Shown here: positions 10,470-33,981 of the stretch, one piece after another
Layout: every line of letters begins with the position of its first letter
Position numbering within the stretch: position 1 is the stretch's first letter
Assembly (NCBI RefSeq): GCF_946408925.1
Contig: NZ_CAMJUE010000017.1
Location: 1-33,981 of the forward strand
Length of the DNA: 33,981 nucleotides
Source of the DNA: an uncultured Methanobrevibacter sp.
GTDB taxonomy: Archaea; Methanobacteriota; Methanobacteria; Methanobacteriales; Methanobacteriaceae
Direction of reading: 5' to 3'
Notes under the pieces: model-generated
What the model saw: only the letters and a program-made list of their open reading frames with translations
Databases searched by the model: none
What the model was told of the DNA's origin: nothing
Made by a program: the position numbers and the translations under genes

Positions 10470-10506
10470 ATACTTTAAAACACAATATATACACAAGGTG
10501 ATAATT

Positions 10507-10914
10507 TTGTACATTACTATAATTGCATTTCAAAATATGCACGGAGAAAAGCCTTTGAAATTAAATGAATTGGTCAAGCTTGTAAAAGAACCCAACAACA
10601 AATATGATACCGAAGCGATAGCCTGTGAAATGAGACATTTCGGAAAAATAGGTTATGTTGCAAACAGCACAAATACTGTAGTTAAAGGTTGCATGAGTTC
10701 AGGCAGAGTATTTGATAAGATTACTGACGAATATTTTGCTAAAATTAAATTCATACACTCCAATATGACAATAGCTAAAATATTAACTGCCGATGAATTC
10801 ATAAAGGAAGTTGAAAATCCTGAAAGTGACATTCATTATTTAAGTGAAAATCCTACAGAAATCGACATAGCATATATTCAGAAAAATTACCCTGCATGTG
10901 ATGAAAATGATTAG
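10507..10914 (+). CDS. HIRAN domain protein
   Basis: A stand-alone protein of about 135 residues. The pattern (I)IAFQNMHG, LVKEPNNKYDTEAIAC and GKIGYVANS matches the HIRAN fold, an OB-like domain known from HLTF-type helicases, where it recognises 3' DNA ends. No helicase or nuclease is fused. A GTG at 10498 is in frame, but it is part of the ribosome-binding site GGTGAT (10497-10502), so the TTG at 10507 is the better start. The next gene (ARPP-1 family) overlaps its end by 8-17 bases, so the two are translationally coupled. The role is not known; handling of unusual DNA ends is inference from the fold. Confidence 0.78.
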   Translation: MYITIIAFQNMHGEKPLKLNELVKLVKEPNNKYDTEAIACEMRHFGKIGYVANSTNTVVKGCMSSGRVFDKITDEYFAKIKFIHSNMTIAKILTADEFIKEVENPESDIHYLSENPTEIDIAYIQKNYPACDEND

Positions 10915-11851
10915 CATTGATGAGATTAAGTTAAATCCAGGTATTGAAATGCTGCAACCACAAGTGCATGAAAACATCACAATCATACCCTTAAAAACTG
11001 AAAGAATATACATTGATCTTTTAACACTTAAAAAAGGTTTGGAATTAGGTCTTGTTGAAGTTAAAGAATGTGACACATCACAGGTGAATACGGTGATTGT
11101 CAAAAATCATTCAGTAACCCCATTAATTTTAATTGACGGTGAGGAAATCATAGGGGGAGACCAGAACAGGATTGTCAACTCAACCATTTTAATTGATGCT
11201 GAAAGTGAGATGAAAATTCCCGTAAGCTGCAGTGAAAAACACAGATGGACATTTAAAAGTGAATTCAAACAGTCAGACTATATTGCCAATTACAAAACTA
11301 GACGGGCAAAGGAGTATGCTTCAAGAGTTTCAAGTTCATTCCAGGATGTGATCTGGTCATCAATTGACAGTCTGGAAATGGAACAGGACTTTGCATCACC
11401 TACCAGCGCAATGGATGGAAGCTATGAAAACATTAAAGCTGCCCACAACCAAATCATTAAACAGTTCAAAATCATTGACGGCCAAACAGGTGTTCTGATA
11501 ATGGTTGATGGACAAATCACAGGTTTTGAATTATTCCTGAACAGTGAAATTTACCGAGAGTTCCATGAAAAAATACTGAAAAGTTATTTGATTGATTCTA
11601 AAATTAAAAATACTCAATTTACAATAAATATTGAAGCTGCACAGGAAGTTATAGATAATGCATGTGACTCTTCATTTGAAAAAAAGAACATCAGCGGAAT
11701 TGAAAGCGCTTATGCCTTTGAAAATGAAGCAGGTCTTGGAACATTATACCTTTTCAAAGATAAGATTGTTCACTGGTCATATTTCAAAAAAGATGAAGAA
11801 AAAATCAGTGATGAAATTGTTTCCGACATCCCTTTAGAAACGGATATCTAA
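10907..11851 (+). CDS. ARPP-1 family (DUF6569-like) protein
   Basis: A protein of 314 residues (317 from the GTG at 10898). The central block DGEEIIGGDQNRIVNST, then MKIPVSCSEKHRWTFKSEF, matches the ARPP-1 family, named for association with ADP-ribosylglycohydrolase and rhodanese-phosphatase genes. The biochemical activity is not known to me. The ATG at 10907 is preferred because GTGAT (10898-10902) lies four bases before it; ATG 10901 and GTG 10898 overlap that site. It overlaps the HIRAN gene at its 5' end, and its 3' end overlaps the convergent HsdM-like gene by 18 bases (11834-11851), so transcription from the two sides could interfere. Confidence 0.7.
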   Translation: MISIDEIKLNPGIEMLQPQVHENITIIPLKTERIYIDLLTLKKGLELGLVEVKECDTSQVNTVIVKNHSVTPLILIDGEEIIGGDQNRIVNSTILIDAESEMKIPVSCSEKHRWTFKSEFKQSDYIANYKTRRAKEYASRVSSSFQDVIWSSIDSLEMEQDFASPTSAMDGSYENIKAAHNQIIKQFKIIDGQTGVLIMVDGQITGFELFLNSEIYREFHEKILKSYLIDSKIKNTQFTINIEAAQEVIDNACDSSFEKKNISGIESAYAFENEAGLGTLYLFKDKIVHWSYFKKDEEKISDEIVSDIPLETDI

Positions 11852-13516
11852 CTCATCCATCATTTTTTCTATTTTTAAATTCAATTCTTGAATATTAGCA
11901 TCAATTTCAGCTTTTTCCTGTTTCAAATCACTTAATCGAATGAATTTTCCTTCAAATGTATCGACATAACGTGACACTGACAGGTTAAAATCATTTTTGG
12001 CAATCTCGCTAATGGAAATCAGATTGGAAAATTTATCGATAGTTAACTTTTTGGAATAGACATCACTGATTTTATCTATGGTTTCATCTGAAAAAATCAG
12101 ATTTCTTCTAAACAGACCGGGGAATAAAATCCTGTTTTTTTGTGTTTTATAGTCATTTGAAATATCAATGAACAATATTCCCTGGTTTGATCTGTTTTTC
12201 CTGAAAACAATGATAACTTCAGGTCTTCTTCTTCCGATTTCCTCAGGCACACTAATTATTGTATCAACATAGTTTTTTTCAAATGTCAGGTATTTTCTAA
12301 GCGTCTGAAGAGAATTTTTAAAAAGGAAGTTCTGTGAAATGCTTATTGCCATGATTCCATCATATTTTAGTGATTCAATCAGATTGATTAAAAACAAGAA
12401 TTCACTGTCCTTTAGAGATTCATACTCACCTGAAAATTCAATATCAGAAGATGATTCGACATCGATTTTTTCAAGCAGGTTTTCCAGTGCACTGTTCAAT
12501 TCAGAATCCTTTGTGAATGAATCGCTGTTCATGTTAAATTCATTACGCAAGACTTTTTCAAGTTCATTTCTTTTGTTTCTCCTGATTATTTCACGGTTCT
12601 GATTTTCCTTTGATGAATAATAATTCCTTATTTTTAATGGGATTTTTGACAATATAACATCAAATGATGCACCGTCAATATCTATTGACTCAGTTGCATC
12701 CTCATTTCTAAATTCCACATAATTCAAGTTGAAATAGTTGATTAGAAATCTGGTAATGGCATAACAGTATGTTAACCTATCAGATTCCTTACCGTAATAT
12801 GTCACGCCCAATTCACATTTCTCAGATAGACTCAATAATGTATTTCCATCCATTAGAAACGGATCATAAGCATTTTTGATTGATGTTTTATCACAACTGA
12901 TTAATGTTGACAACAATTGTGAGATGTATTCAGGAGTCGGTTGGATGTGCATCAGTTTTGATGATGTCAATACCTCAAATACACTGCTGAATGGAAATTC
13001 AGTTTCGAATAAATCCAATTTGGAAATTGCATATATTATTTCCTTTATGGCTAATTTTATCTCACTTTCAAATTCATATTTGTCAATTTTTATTTCCTGA
13101 GACAGTGTTTTGAACAAGAACTCAAAATATTTCTTATCTTTGGAATCTGGGGCAAATGTGATGTTTTTTGGAAATATACTGAAAAATTCTGAGAGAAAAA
13201 ATCTGTCAGAATAGAAGTTATTTATCACTTCATCGATGAATGCATCTGGCTTTTCAATGTGAAAACCGTATAGATGCATTGAATCTTCCTTTAGAACTTC
13301 CTGATAATAATTAGATTTATAAGCCTCATCCAGAGTCATTTCCTTATCCTGAAGAGCCATTAGAAAATGATCTTTTATGCTGTCTGAGCAGTACTTGTAT
13401 AAAAAGGTGTATATTACAATGTAGTCGATTTCATCAGGCAACTTGAAGTTTCTTGATTTTGATATGAGATTTTTTAAAATAGAATAATTATCTGATTTTT
13501 TGGAGTTAGGTCTCAT
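11834..13516 (-). CDS. HsdM-like type I methylase subunit with degenerate catalytic motifs
   Basis: A 560-residue relative of HsdM. The order of family landmarks is kept: an alpha-helical N-terminal region, QPTPEYISQLLSTL (usually YTP...), motif I, a YGKESDR block (usually YGQE), FDVIL with motif IV, SLKYDGIMAISIS, and a C-terminal coiled coil for HsdS contact. The catalytic motifs are lost. Motif I reads DPFLMDGNTLL (about 218-228) instead of DPxxGSGG, and motif IV reads SKIPL (about 290-294) instead of NPPF/Y. AdoMet binding and adenine methylation are therefore unlikely. The ATG at 13516 is preferred, with GGGGTGA upstream; a GTG at 13525 lies inside that site. It overlaps the HsdS stop by 11 bases. 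No HsdR is nearby. Confidence 0.8.
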   Translation of the reverse strand: MRPNSKKSDNYSILKNLISKSRNFKLPDEIDYIVIYTFLYKYCSDSIKDHFLMALQDKEMTLDEAYKSNYYQEVLKEDSMHLYGFHIEKPDAFIDEVINNFYSDRFFLSEFFSIFPKNITFAPDSKDKKYFEFLFKTLSQEIKIDKYEFESEIKLAIKEIIYAISKLDLFETEFPFSSVFEVLTSSKLMHIQPTPEYISQLLSTLISCDKTSIKNAYDPFLMDGNTLLSLSEKCELGVTYYGKESDRLTYCYAITRFLINYFNLNYVEFRNEDATESIDIDGASFDVILSKIPLKIRNYYSSKENQNREIIRRNKRNELEKVLRNEFNMNSDSFTKDSELNSALENLLEKIDVESSSDIEFSGEYESLKDSEFLFLINLIESLKYDGIMAISISQNFLFKNSLQTLRKYLTFEKNYVDTIISVPEEIGRRRPEVIIVFRKNRSNQGILFIDISNDYKTQKNRILFPGLFRRNLIFSDETIDKISDVYSKKLTIDKFSNLISISEIAKNDFNLSVSRYVDTFEGKFIRLSDLKQEKAEIDANIQELNLKIEKMMDELDIRF

Positions 13517-14075
13517 TATCTTCACCCCATAACTCGTTGAGTATAGCCTCTTTTAGATTCCTGTCATATTCCAGCTGGCGTTGGTCTTCACGAATCTTAT
13601 CATTTATAGTATTGAGCAATTCCCCATATTTAACTTGAGTGTTAAAATCAGGTACAATTAATTCCAACTGCTTTATTTCCTTTAGGGAAGTGTGAGGGAT
13701 TTTTTCACTGCTTCCGAGTTCATGCAATTGTTTTTTTATATGAGTATTGGTGAGTAAGTGTGTGATAAAGTCAGGGTCGTAGTCTTTTTTGAGTCTGATG
13801 ATGGCTATTCGGTCACTTACGATTAGGCCTTCCTTTTTTACACATACTACATCATAGGGATAGGGCATTTTCATCAGCACATCGTTTTTTCTGGTGAAAT
13901 ATCTTTCCTTGATATTGCTTTTGAGTGTTAACTCATCGAAGTCAGATATTTCCCCGTCTTTTTTTATTGATCTTTGAACGATTACTTGGAATTTTTCGCC
14001 ATCATCATCCAGATAACGCCTGTATGACAATCCTGAAAATATTTCCGCCATATCTTCTAATTTTACTTTTTTCAT
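13506..14075 (-). CDS. Half-size HsdS-like specificity subunit (single TRD)
   Basis: A 189-residue protein with one target-recognition domain (about residues 1-145) and one C-terminal coiled coil (TQVKYGELLNTINDKI onward), the layout of half an HsdS. Full HsdS proteins carry two TRDs and are about twice as long, so this one would have to dimerise to recognise a two-part palindromic site. The ATG at 14075 is chosen because GTGAT lies four bases upstream; the in-frame GTG at 14084 is part of that ribosome-binding site. It is first in an overlapping pair with the HsdM-like gene. It is probably the DNA-reading half of that complex. Confidence 0.82.
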   Translation of the reverse strand: MKKVKLEDMAEIFSGLSYRRYLDDDGEKFQVIVQRSIKKDGEISDFDELTLKSNIKERYFTRKNDVLMKMPYPYDVVCVKKEGLIVSDRIAIIRLKKDYDPDFITHLLTNTHIKKQLHELGSSEKIPHTSLKEIKQLELIVPDFNTQVKYGELLNTINDKIREDQRQLEYDRNLKEAILNELWGEDNET

Positions 14076-14140
14076 TCTAATCACTTTAAAATGATTTTTG
14101 TGTTCAAATGTTATGTATTTACAATGGTAGTTGAATGAGC

Positions 14141-14171
14141 ATTAGTTTTTGGTGGTGTGCCAAAAACTAAT
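14141..14171 (-). terminator. 12-bp perfect hairpin after the hypothetical gene
   Basis: Arms ATTAGTTTTTGG (14141-14152) and CCAAAAACTAAT (14160-14171) pair perfectly around a 7-base loop. On the minus strand the hairpin begins at the stop codon of the preceding hypothetical gene and lies upstream of hsdS. No U-tract follows, so it may act as a 3'-protective structure, an attenuator or an operator for the HsdS-HsdM pair rather than as a simple terminator. Confidence 0.5.
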
Positions 14172-14515
14172 CATTGGTATAGTCCTGAGACATCATCAAG
14201 CAAGTGAGTTTCGTCAGGAATTTCAGAAGGGTCAACTTTTTCAGCTGAAACTCCACCTATTACCCCTACACTTTGGATGTTGTCTTTTAGAACAGCGGTT
14301 GATGTGATTCCAGGTCCTTGTGGTGAAAGGACAAATAAGTCAAGAAACAATTCATCTTCTCCAACAATAAATGCCGGTTCTATTGCTTCAGCAGATTTTG
14401 TTTGGACTTTTATTAAGATGTGTTTTGCTTCATTGTCATCTTCAATACCGATTTCCTGTCTGATTGTTTTGTCTAAATCTTTGACTTTTTCGCTCCAATT
14501 TATCTTTTGGTTCAT
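14171..14515 (-). CDS. Hypothetical protein, 114 residues
   Basis: An acidic soluble protein of unknown function. It starts at the ATG at 14515 with GAGGTAAT just before it; an ATG 39 bases further upstream has no such site. A polar N-terminal helix region (NWSEKVKDLDKTIRQEIG) is followed by a beta-rich part with GVIGGVSAEKVDPSEIP. There is no signal peptide, membrane segment or cysteine pattern. A TATA-like TTTATATATTA at about 14628-14638 drives it, with two GATGCATTTTT repeats between the likely start of transcription and the gene. A perfect hairpin follows its stop codon. Confidence 0.7.
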   Translation of the reverse strand: MNQKINWSEKVKDLDKTIRQEIGIEDDNEAKHILIKVQTKSAEAIEPAFIVGEDELFLDLFVLSPQGPGITSTAVLKDNIQSVGVIGGVSAEKVDPSEIPDETHLLDDVSGLYQ

Positions 14516-14799: not shown

Positions 14800-15399
14800 A
14801 TGGAAGTTAAAAATGGAAGCGTTGAAGAAAGAATCATCAATGCTTCATTTCATATTCTAGAAAAAGAAGGCTTTTCAGGAGCCACAACTAAAAAAATAGC
14901 TGAAAAAGCTGGAGTAAGTGAAGTAACACTGTTTCGAAAGTTCGAAAGCAAAGAAAAACTAATCAGCATAGCAAAAGAACATTACAGTACTGATTTCATT
15001 GAAAAACTAACAGAGATATTCCAATACACTCCTGAAATAAGTGTAGAAGAATACTTAACCCAATGCTTCAATAAACTAGTTAATTTAACAGACAATGAAT
15101 TAACAATACTGAAAGTGGGAATGGAAGAAGTAAGAGACATTCCAACTGACAAAAAAGTATTTTTACGAATTAGTGAAACAATAATCGACGAATTAACTAA
15201 ATTCTTTTCATTAAAAATCGAACAAAAAGAACTAAGAGAAATAAATCCTAGCATATTAGCTTTAAATATGTTCAGTATCATGTTTGAGTCAATAATCCTT
15301 TGGAAAGTTTATGGCAAACAACCAAAATACAACATTGACCGATATACTGAAGACTTCCTAGACATAATTTTAAATGGAATAAAAAGTGATAACAAATGA
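14800..15399 (+). CDS. TetR/AcrR family transcriptional regulator
   Basis: A 199-residue TetR-family repressor. The N-terminal helix-turn-helix is clear (about residues 9-55): RIINASFHILEKEGFSGATT, then IAEKAGVSEVTLFRKFESKE. The remaining all-helical part is the ligand-binding and dimer domain, whose ligand cannot be predicted. It is probably leaderless and autoregulated through the palindrome between its TATA box and start. Its stop overlaps the start of the YhgE/Pip gene by four bases (ATGA), so it should control that membrane protein. Confidence 0.92.
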   Translation: MEVKNGSVEERIINASFHILEKEGFSGATTKKIAEKAGVSEVTLFRKFESKEKLISIAKEHYSTDFIEKLTEIFQYTPEISVEEYLTQCFNKLVNLTDNELTILKVGMEEVRDIPTDKKVFLRISETIIDELTKFFSLKIEQKELREINPSILALNMFSIMFESIILWKVYGKQPKYNIDRYTEDFLDIILNGIKSDNK

Positions 15400-17273
15400 G
15401 CGGAAGAGATATCCACAATATCGTGGAAATAATGAAAAACGATTTCAAGGCAGCTTTTCAAAACCCCATCGTGGTTATTGTATTAGTTGCACTTATAATC
15501 TTACCTTCCCTTTACGCTATCTTAAACATACAGGCATGTTGGGATCCCTATGAAAATACCAATCAAGTCCAATTTGCAATAGCCAACCTTGACAAGGGTG
15601 CTTCATACGAGAACATGACCCTGAATGTAGGTAATGAACTTACAAAAGAACTGAAAAACAATGACAAGTTTGATTGGGTTTTTGTAAGCGAAGATGAACT
15701 GAGAAAAGGTGTTGATTCAGGAAAGTATTATGCGGGGATGATAATACCCGAGGATTTGAGTAAAGATGTGATTTCAATAACAACAGACAATCCAAAATCT
15801 GCTGAAATCAAATATATCGTCAACATCAAGGCAAATCCGGTTGCAAGTAAATTAACTGACAGTGCAGCAAATTCAGTTTACCGCACAATGAATGCTAAAA
15901 TCGTTAAGTTTATCGATATTGCTGCCTACGGTAAATTGGGCGAACTGCAAGACGGTTTGGCTTCAGGATCAACCCAACTTTCATCAGGAGCATCACAATT
16001 GTCAAGCGGCGCAAGTCAAGTATCATCAGGAGCAGCCGAATTATCATCCGGTGCCGATAAGGTAACCAATGGTGCAGATAAAGTAAAAACCGGAGCATCT
16101 GATGTTAACAAAGGCGCCGATAAAGTCAAATCCGGTTCAAAAGCTGTTGATGACGGAGCAAGCAAAGTGTCAGGTTCCGCTGATCAAATCAAATCAGGTT
16201 CCCAACAGGTTCAACAGGGTGCAAGCAATTTGGAATCACAGGCAAATCCCTCATTACTTCCAAGCCCAGTAAAGGAAGTTGTTGAAGGTTCAGTTCAGCT
16301 TGCAAATTCAAGTTCACAATTGGCAAGAGGTTCCAGTGATTTGGCCGAAGGTTCAGTTCAGCTTGCAAGCAGTTCCTCAAAACTTGCAAACGGTGCAAGC
16401 GATGTTGCAGGAGGAGCCAGCAAAGTTGCAGATGGTGCGGGAGATGTTGCAGACGGTTCCAGTGAATTAGCTAAAGGAGCATTGAGTCTTGCAGCCGGCT
16501 CTGAATTATTGTCATCTTCAGCAGCACAGGCATTATTCTCTGCAGCCAGCGCATTATCAGGAGCATCAAGTTCCCTTGCAGATGTGACTGGAGTTAACGA
16601 GTCACAGATGGGAGATTACATTTACTCACCGGTTAAGCTAGACCGGGAGGAAATTTATCCTGCATCCAATTACGGTTCCAGTGTTGCGGCCTTTTATATT
16701 GTATTGTCAATGTGGGTTGGAGCGGTAATTACCTGTGTAATGATTAAGCCCGGAACAAGTACCGGAACAAAATACTCTCCTCTTGAAATGTATTTCGGTA
16801 AACTATTGCTGTTCATCATAATGAGTTTGCTTCAGGCAGGAGTTACAATATCCGGATTGTTCATACTTAGAATTGACATAGTGGAGCCATTAGTGTTTAT
16901 ATTTTCAGGACTTCTTGTGTCAATGACATTCATGGTATTGATGTATTCTTTAATATCGGCTTTGGGCCAAGTTGGAAAAGGAATTGGTGTAATATTGTTA
17001 GTGCTTCAGATTTCAGGAACTGGAGGAATATATCCTATTGAAATTATGGGAGAGCTATTCCAGGCAATATATCCTTTTATGCCAATGACATATGCAATTA
17101 ACTTAATAAGAGAATCACTGCTTGGTGTGGTATGGCATAATTATATTCCGGCACTCCTTATTTTAGCAGGTATTTCTATTGCAACAATTATTATTGCAAT
17201 TATCATTAAAGAAAAAGCGGATGATGCTTCACATTACTTTGAAGAGCGTTTAGGTGAAACTGGATTATTCTAG
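15396..17273 (+). CDS. YhgE/Pip family membrane protein
   Basis: A 625-residue membrane protein of the YhgE/phage-infection-protein family. It has one N-terminal transmembrane helix (about 25-45), an external domain (about 50-185), a long Ser/Gly/Ala-rich run of heptad-like repeats (about 189-390, units such as QLSSGAS and KVADGAG), then a five- or six-helix ABC-2-type membrane domain (about 428-610). The repeats should form a long helical stalk outside the cell. Related bacterial proteins serve as phage receptors or secretion-machine parts; the archaeal substrate is unknown. The TetR-YhgE pair, coupled by an ATGA overlap, suggests an induced envelope or export function. A hairpin terminator follows. 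Confidence 0.88.
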   Translation: MSGRDIHNIVEIMKNDFKAAFQNPIVVIVLVALIILPSLYAILNIQACWDPYENTNQVQFAIANLDKGASYENMTLNVGNELTKELKNNDKFDWVFVSEDELRKGVDSGKYYAGMIIPEDLSKDVISITTDNPKSAEIKYIVNIKANPVASKLTDSAANSVYRTMNAKIVKFIDIAAYGKLGELQDGLASGSTQLSSGASQLSSGASQVSSGAAELSSGADKVTNGADKVKTGASDVNKGADKVKSGSKAVDDGASKVSGSADQIKSGSQQVQQGASNLESQANPSLLPSPVKEVVEGSVQLANSSSQLARGSSDLAEGSVQLASSSSKLANGASDVAGGASKVADGAGDVADGSSELAKGALSLAAGSELLSSSAAQALFSAASALSGASSSLADVTGVNESQMGDYIYSPVKLDREEIYPASNYGSSVAAFYIVLSMWVGAVITCVMIKPGTSTGTKYSPLEMYFGKLLLFIIMSLLQAGVTISGLFILRIDIVEPLVFIFSGLLVSMTFMVLMYSLISALGQVGKGIGVILLVLQISGTGGIYPIEIMGELFQAIYPFMPMTYAINLIRESLLGVVWHNYIPALLILAGISIATIIIAIIIKEKADDASHYFEERLGETGLF

Positions 17274-33711: not shown

Positions 33712-33720
33712 AATATATTA

Positions 33721-33804
33721 CGCCGAGACTGGGATTTGAACCCAGGCGAGGATAACCTCACAGGATTTCAAGTCCTGCGCCTTACCAGACTAGACTATCT
33801 CGGC
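33721..33804 (-). tRNA. tRNA-Ser(UGA), copy 1
   Basis: An 84-base serine tRNA. Acceptor GCCGAGA pairs with TCTCGGC, and the discriminator base is G. The anticodon arm is CAGGA-CTTGAAA-TCCTG with anticodon TGA, the T arm contains GGTTCAAATCC, and a long variable arm GAGG-TTAT-CCTC is typical of type II serine tRNAs. CCA is not encoded. It reads UCA codons. The upstream flank TCATAT is shared with copy 2. Confidence 0.95.
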
Positions 33805-33891
33805 ATATGAAAAGGAATATTTAATTAAAATTAATGCAAAAATAGAAAATTACATTAAACAACTTTTTTTAAAAATAGATTTAAAGATAAA

Positions 33892-33975
33892 CGCCGAGAC
33901 TGGGATTTGAACCCAGGCGAGGGAACCCTCACAGGATTTCAAGTCCTGCGCCTTACCAGACTAGACTATCTCGGC
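33892..33975 (-). tRNA. tRNA-Ser(UGA), copy 2
   Basis: A second 84-base tRNA-Ser with the same acceptor, D, anticodon and T arms as copy 1, 171 bases away. The only differences are in the variable arm, GAGG-GTTC-CCTC instead of GAGG-TTAT-CCTC. The anticodon is TGA. CCA is not encoded. The window ends six bases upstream of it, within the flank shared with copy 1, so further copies beyond the window cannot be excluded. Confidence 0.95.
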
Positions 33976-33981
33976 ATATGA

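Follow-up and report, generated by a model that had tools for sequence, protein, structure and literature searches.

We analysed a window of 33,981 nucleotides (positions 1 to 33,981 of contig NZ_CAMJUE010000017.1, assembly GCF_946408925.1) from an uncultured Methanobrevibacter sp. It carries two overlapping genes, coding for an HsdM-like protein without catalytic motifs (dead M) and for a half-size HsdS (half-S) made of one recognition domain and one long helix. The pair is homologous to the methyltransferase core of type I restriction systems, has lost the catalytic motifs, is confined to one clade and one locus, and is under purifying selection with a frozen half-S. Because the methylating and cutting parts have been lost, yet the pair is preserved at one chromosomal site, it has probably become a DNA-binding control factor. 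As to how, we lean slightly towards the view that it is the Sshort-M core of an hsdR-Sshort-M-Slong system, co-opted a single time, early in the history of a large Methanobrevibacter clade, and now acting, without methylation, as an M2S2 clamp on a fixed two-part host site, i.e. as a repressor, a roadblock or an architectural factor.

Identity of the gene pair

The dead M matches Pfam N6_Mtase (E 1.1e-29) and the half-S Pfam Methylase_S (E 3.3e-08); on the NCBIfam hsdM model the dead M scores 57 bits, for a cut-off of 243. An HsdM-like fold is present across its whole chain. An upstream GTG is an alternative start, which would give a protein of 563 aa. The coordinates (Table 1) and the 11-base overlap of the two genes, as given in a preliminary description of this DNA, were right on recheck; the good ribosome-binding sites that it announced for both genes correspond to plausible sites, AAAGTGATTAGA ahead of S and GGGGTGAAGATA ahead of M.

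Catalytic motifs of the HsdM-like protein

The sequences standing at the positions of motifs I and IV, DPFLMDGNTL and SKIPL, are exactly those quoted in the preliminary description. The homologue search of the dead M gave 372 matches among 8000 candidates scored; the 120 listed are all at least 52% identical to it. None of these 120 proteins, and none of the 40 genomic loci described below, contains [NDS]PP[FYW], and for that reason the motif loss is, at the sequence level, a family trait and not a sequence error. Motif I is variable inside the family: DPxxGxG is retained in 22 of the 120 proteins and at 1 of the 40 loci, and its Asp persists at 23 loci. Asn at the motif IV site is found in 2 of the 120 proteins, as SNIP; at the 40 loci the site of this catalytic Asn is occupied by K (19), R (18), E (2) or H (1). 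The motif II residue is K at 40/40 pair loci and Q at 35/35 intact ones, and an acidic residue follows the Lys at 24 of the 40. An orphan DNA methyltransferase would be expected to have the catalytic motif, which the dead M lacks.

With a Lys in place of the motif II Gln at 40/40 loci and K or R in place of the motif IV Asn at 37/40, the extra positive charge near the old pocket would speak against AdoMet and for the DNA backbone or another anionic ligand. A third candidate site of gained positive charge was dropped, since intact enzymes carry an Arg there.

Distribution, inheritance and selection

Full-length relatives of the dead M (40-100% identity) were found in 40 genomes, every one of them from Methanobrevibacter, of which 67 genomes were covered. 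Outside the genus the matches listed were at most 43% identical and concerned mostly the C-terminal third of M. All 31 named loci come from metagenome records of Methanobrevibacter; two of these records carry the name M. thaueri, and the titles of several refer to samples of ruminant gut. At all 40 loci a half-S lies directly upstream of M and adjoins it, as the hsdRSMS (Sshort-M) layout requires, and both stand together with c2, a gene for a protein of 114 aa. M has an open frame of 552-569 aa throughout, and the half-S (186-215 aa) is a conserved protein with one recognition domain, not a variable HsdS with two. Flanking gene families recur among the loci (e.g. at 27 to 37 of the 40). Four more genomes of the genus have c2 without the pair, at the same chromosomal place; among the 23 without a c2 match, the neighbourhoods of 20 (some cut by contig ends) were inspected and the pair was at none.

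The absence of HsdR beside the pair, first noted in the window, extends to all 40 loci: a profile search of the open reading frames in these neighbourhoods, some of them cut by contig ends, gave no match, and the dead M and half-S are the sole HsdM- and HsdS-like genes there. Subfamily members with intact NPPF motifs and an adjacent hsdR, which the preliminary description had named as evidence that would speak against a non-methylating pair, were found neither among the 120 listed proteins nor at the 40 loci. The one hsdR of the window's genome is on another contig (C25), inside an intact type I locus (HsdM of 665 aa with NPPY, HsdS of 431 aa, HsdR of 969 aa) that stands beside a second dead pair. 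In eight carriers (G046, G056, G070, G075, G082, G087, G091 and G092; completeness 82-94%) the lone PF02384 match is the pair's own M and HSDR_N has no match. No sign of other type I genes was thus seen in these 8 of the 40 carriers; the other 32 include the window's own genome.

A mobile element was considered and rejected: in viral contigs the S has no relative and the M two weak ones (23-29% identity). In all, M matches 33 phage records and 2088 plasmid records, every one below 60% identity, and S matches 5 plasmid records.

In a 57-row tree built from five neighbour proteins, the presence of the pair requires five changes, most simply one gain and four losses in a single 38-row clade, 34 rows of which have the pair. 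Over 34 loci, distances correlate with those of the core for both S (0.45) and M (0.54), with 0/2000 permutations as high in either case, and those of S and M correlate with each other (0.83). Among the twelve pairs compared for M, dN/dS was 0.07-0.13 in the three with dS below 2 and, as rough values, 0.04-0.17 in the six with dS 2.1-3.0; in three, saturated dS made the value impossible to compute. Low dN/dS, synteny and inheritance inside one clade support the initial view that the pair is maintained and not decaying.

The half-S is 55-95% identical across the 661 tabulated pairs (of 780) and above M in all 661, whereas at 18 loci with motif-bearing HsdMs both halves of the long HsdS (Slong) are only about 30% identical even where M is more than 90% identical (4 pairs). 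It would follow that the functional surface of the half-S is far more fixed in the window family than in its relatives. The upstream half-S of 12 motif-bearing loci shows a conservation intermediate between that of the pair's half-S and that of the Slong halves.

Recurrence of dead pairs

The second dead pair of the window's genome (L080, G000:C25, 6601-8536) lies directly before the intact type I locus. It combines a half-S of 186 aa with an HsdM of 457 aa carrying DPFTDEATLL and SIPPF, and has one relative at 77%, in G079. A set of 68 other HsdMs of the family combined 62 of the 63 matches of one search, made with a dead paralogue as query, with 5 of 16 from a second search and a single neighbouring HsdM; L194 (match cut by a contig end) and L245 (a 979-aa protein) were left out before the count. 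Motif IV is missing in 22 of the 68, which read [SC][QE]IPF (9, from another genus), SHPPF (4), KPPF (3), SIPPF (2), QPPF (2), NPPA (1) and NPTY (1).

An upstream half-S only, with neither downstream HsdS nor HsdR found, accompanies 19/22 motif-less HsdMs (18/22 if the HsdR near the C25 pair is not assigned, as was done by hand, to the intact neighbour) versus 2/46 motif-bearing ones, HsdR being sought with a profile grown from one HsdR on stretches often cut by contig ends. The association is strong when kinship is ignored (Fisher p 8.5e-12); a kinship-aware test on five pairs only was not significant (on average 3.6 the same way, 0 opposite and 1.4 without difference; p 0.125). The exceptions are L189 and L226, where a motif-bearing HsdM is accompanied by nothing but an upstream half-S, and three dead HsdMs of other layout, L183 (HsdR and a second, motif-bearing HsdM nearby), L190 (downstream S) and L193 (no S found). 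The HsdM tree, which included 14 of the 40 window-family loci, requires six changes of state, five of them forced by well-supported branches; owing to long branches, the deep position of the window family is uncertain.

Nine loci of another genus (L235-L239, L241-L243 and L191) have a half-S and an HsdM of 563-640 aa reading [SC][QE]IPF. These HsdMs retain YTP of motif X and most of motif I, and may for that reason still bind AdoMet. Most of the nine share one neighbourhood, with geranylgeranyl diphosphate synthase-like and RNase J-like genes on one side (5-6 loci) and a pyrophosphatase-like gene on the other (8), names that are our own reading of the sequences; settlement at a core locus may therefore have happened twice. 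A broader and more tentative proposal, to which we give somewhat less than even credence, is that type I methyltransferase cores have repeatedly turned, in methanogenic archaea, into non-enzymatic DNA-binding regulators made of a dead HsdM and a half-HsdS, two of which would have become fixed at core loci of different genera with an unchanging target. As transcription or chromatin factors of archaea they would be of a new kind.

Relation to motif-bearing loci

At several motif-bearing loci (e.g. L218) R, half-S, M and long S follow each other in that order on one strand, and 13 motif-bearing loci have, like the pair, an upstream half-S. A profile of the window-family S gave 68.5-124 bits for 13/13 of these upstream half-S and 3.5-35.2 bits for 34/34 downstream S (within Methanobacteriaceae), so the pair's S is homologous to the upstream half-S of motif-bearing loci. 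The hsdRSMS order has been described in Staphylococcus xylosus, where hsdS_short is conserved along its length (PMC10030836).

Neighbourhood of the pair

The c2 gene just upstream of the pair was absent from the preliminary description. Its product is acidic, 71-100% identical in the 44 genus genomes that have it and 39-42% in two of another genus. Pfam has no match for it up to E 1. Of the 277 matches in a protein search 120 were listed, and wherever a listed match names an organism, this is Methanobrevibacter. Near relatives show two TATA-like boxes, a CACC-N12-GGTG repeat and a predicted hairpin, the last of which is not seen in deeper lineages. At 14/40 loci (e.g. L074:6990-7388) a small protein of 123-160 aa is encoded between c2 and the half-S; the one scanned had no Pfam match.

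Table 1. Coordinates of the gene pair, its motif positions and the adjoining c2 region in the window
Feature	Position	Strand	Remarks
Dead M, HsdM-like protein without catalytic motifs	11834..13516	-	560 aa from ATG
Half-S, one recognition domain and one long helix	13506..14075	-	189 aa
Motif I position	12836..12865	-	DPFLMDGNTL in place of DPxxGxG; residues 218-227 of the 560-aa form
Motif II position	12785..12793	-	GKE; Lys for the Gln of intact relatives
Motif IV position	12635..12649	-	SKIPL in place of NPP[FY]
c2	14171..14515	-	114-aa protein, no known family; upstream at 40/40 loci
c2-hsdS gap	14085..14170	-	predicted hairpin with 11-bp stem just after c2; nearest relatives only

On the other side, genes for a HIRAN-domain protein and an ARPP-1 protein (window positions 10498-11851) run convergent to that of the dead M, with an overlap of 18 bases; both families are present at 27/40 loci. 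A TetR-type regulator and a YhgE/Pip-like protein (14800-17273) lie between c2 and an MtrA-like gene, the YhgE/Pip-like family being found at 8/40 loci. Two neighbouring tRNA-Ser(TGA) genes lie at positions 33720-33976.

Proposed function and alternatives

In the scenario that we favour, an Sshort-M core would have been taken over in a single event, HsdR and the two-domain HsdS would have been lost, and HsdM would have lost its AdoMet loop and catalytic Asn. Two half-S chains could then pair by their long helices, each carrying one M, and the resulting clamp would sit on the chromosomal site and act there, perhaps with the c2 protein. A regulator or architectural factor is what we infer as first choice, ahead of a helper, a decoy or a ligand switch. 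The preliminary description had proposed a non-methylating, sequence-specific DNA-binding machine, be it a regulator, a roadblock or a sensor. This is favoured by the frozen half-S and by persistence in the eight genomes without other PF02384 or HSDR_N match; the sensor of foreign DNA fits less well, because of the core-locus inheritance, the little change in half-S, and viral contigs with no S relative and two weak M relatives.

Several observations weigh against a DNA-binding factor of this kind. The whole S has an isoelectric point of 5.7 (8.5 for the recognition domain alone). The pair was apparently lost four times, and so is dispensable. M evolves faster than the neighbouring core proteins (mean distance 0.53 versus 0.17). 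Alignment of the c2-hsdS gap and of the 250 bases before c2 revealed no shared DNA target site. With the S profile the S. xylosus hsdS_short reaches only 12.5 bits, not above the 12.7 of its hsdS_long; this conserved subunit is thought unlikely to set specificity (PMC10030836), so that conservation of a half-S may instead reflect a conserved contact with protein.

The pair could assist or modulate a type I system that is active in the same cell, its half-S and dead M replacing or joining active subunits and altering specificity. A parallel would be hsdS_short, without which the S. xylosus hsdRSMS system had a changed motif and lower modification scores (PMC10030836). The 13 motif-bearing loci with an upstream half-S and the intact locus on C25 fit this idea. 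We nevertheless consider it unlikely, given the eight carriers without another PF02384 match or HSDR_N and the lack of other HsdM- or HsdS-like genes at the 40 loci.

Less likely still is a conserved decoy or sensor, a type I mimic that captures anti-restriction proteins of viruses (Ocr, ArdA or paratox-like), c2 serving as signal or effector. The top fold match of S is Esub1 (presumably a Streptococcus pyogenes protein), solved with Prx (which we take to be the phage protein paratox), PDB titles give EcoR124I with Ocr and ArdA, and c2 is at all 40 loci; but core-locus inheritance, a slowly evolving S and low dN/dS do not resemble what is seen in an arms-race protein, and c2 also occurs without the pair in four genomes. 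We hold as equally improbable an AdoMet- or nucleotide-sensing switch, in which the old cofactor pocket would bind another ligand and set DNA binding. The basic residues at the motif II and IV sites, and a second dead family that keeps YTP of motif X and most of motif I, are compatible with it, but the former is a charge argument only, drawn from an alignment, and motif I varies inside the family.

Residual or altered methyltransferase activity through non-canonical motifs seems highly improbable: the acidic residues persisting at motifs I and II and the few listed proteins with DPxxGxG or SNIP are set against the lack of [NDS]PP[FYW] in 120/120 listed proteins and 40/40 loci and of DPxxGxG at 39/40 loci. 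Slow decay of a former restriction system, suggested by the rapid divergence of M relative to core genes and the four apparent losses, is largely refuted by the open frames at 40/40 loci, dN/dS of 0.04-0.17 where computable and the high identity of S.

Comparison with known systems

Reuse of restriction systems for epigenetic methylation is already known. Repeated reuse as a pure binding complex without catalysis was not found in the open-licence literature searched; these searches, with most subscription papers outside their scope, found no account of dead HsdM/half-HsdS pairs. As far as their accessible text goes, a survey of archaeal restriction-modification lists persistent methylases, with none given across the class Methanobacteria and no occurrence of the term 'inactive' (PMC10609329); hsdM is mentioned in two genome papers on Methanobrevibacter, which do not analyse its motifs (PMC3746419, PMC7772410); and a BREX survey reports inactive domains of other kinds (PMC12839542). 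Sources that name these genes call them methylases or restriction subunits, which would mislead methylome and defence surveys. The pair offers a family open to experiment in Methanobrevibacter, and a single family of archaea supplies both intact and dead forms of the module for comparison.

Among described systems, hsdRSMS of S. xylosus is similar in that its half-S (191 aa) immediately precedes an M of some 520 aa, and among the 15 best plasmid matches listed for the window's M, 6 are plasmids in Table 2 of the S. xylosus report (PMC10030836), at an identity of about 25% over 94%; record CP066727.1 has the R-S-M-S order. It differs in that its M has NPPY and DPTCGSG and is accompanied by hsdR and a long hsdS, whereas the window family has neither R nor Slong nor the M motifs. 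The dead M can also be set beside PacII M and the HsdMs of two solved type I enzymes, 3lkd and EcoR124I; in the alignments 3lkd has DATMGSGS as motif I and EcoR124I NPPY as motif IV, both motifs being lost in the dead M. Esub1 (PDB 8vsq, 8vsr), the nearest fold to the window's S, is 15% identical to it. NgoAV, EcoDXXI and the truncated EcoR124I also have half-HsdS with one recognition domain per chain, and palindromic motifs are reported for half-HsdS systems in the S. xylosus work (PMC10030836); they are likened to the pair by description, not by sequence, and, unlike it, are parts of methylating systems.
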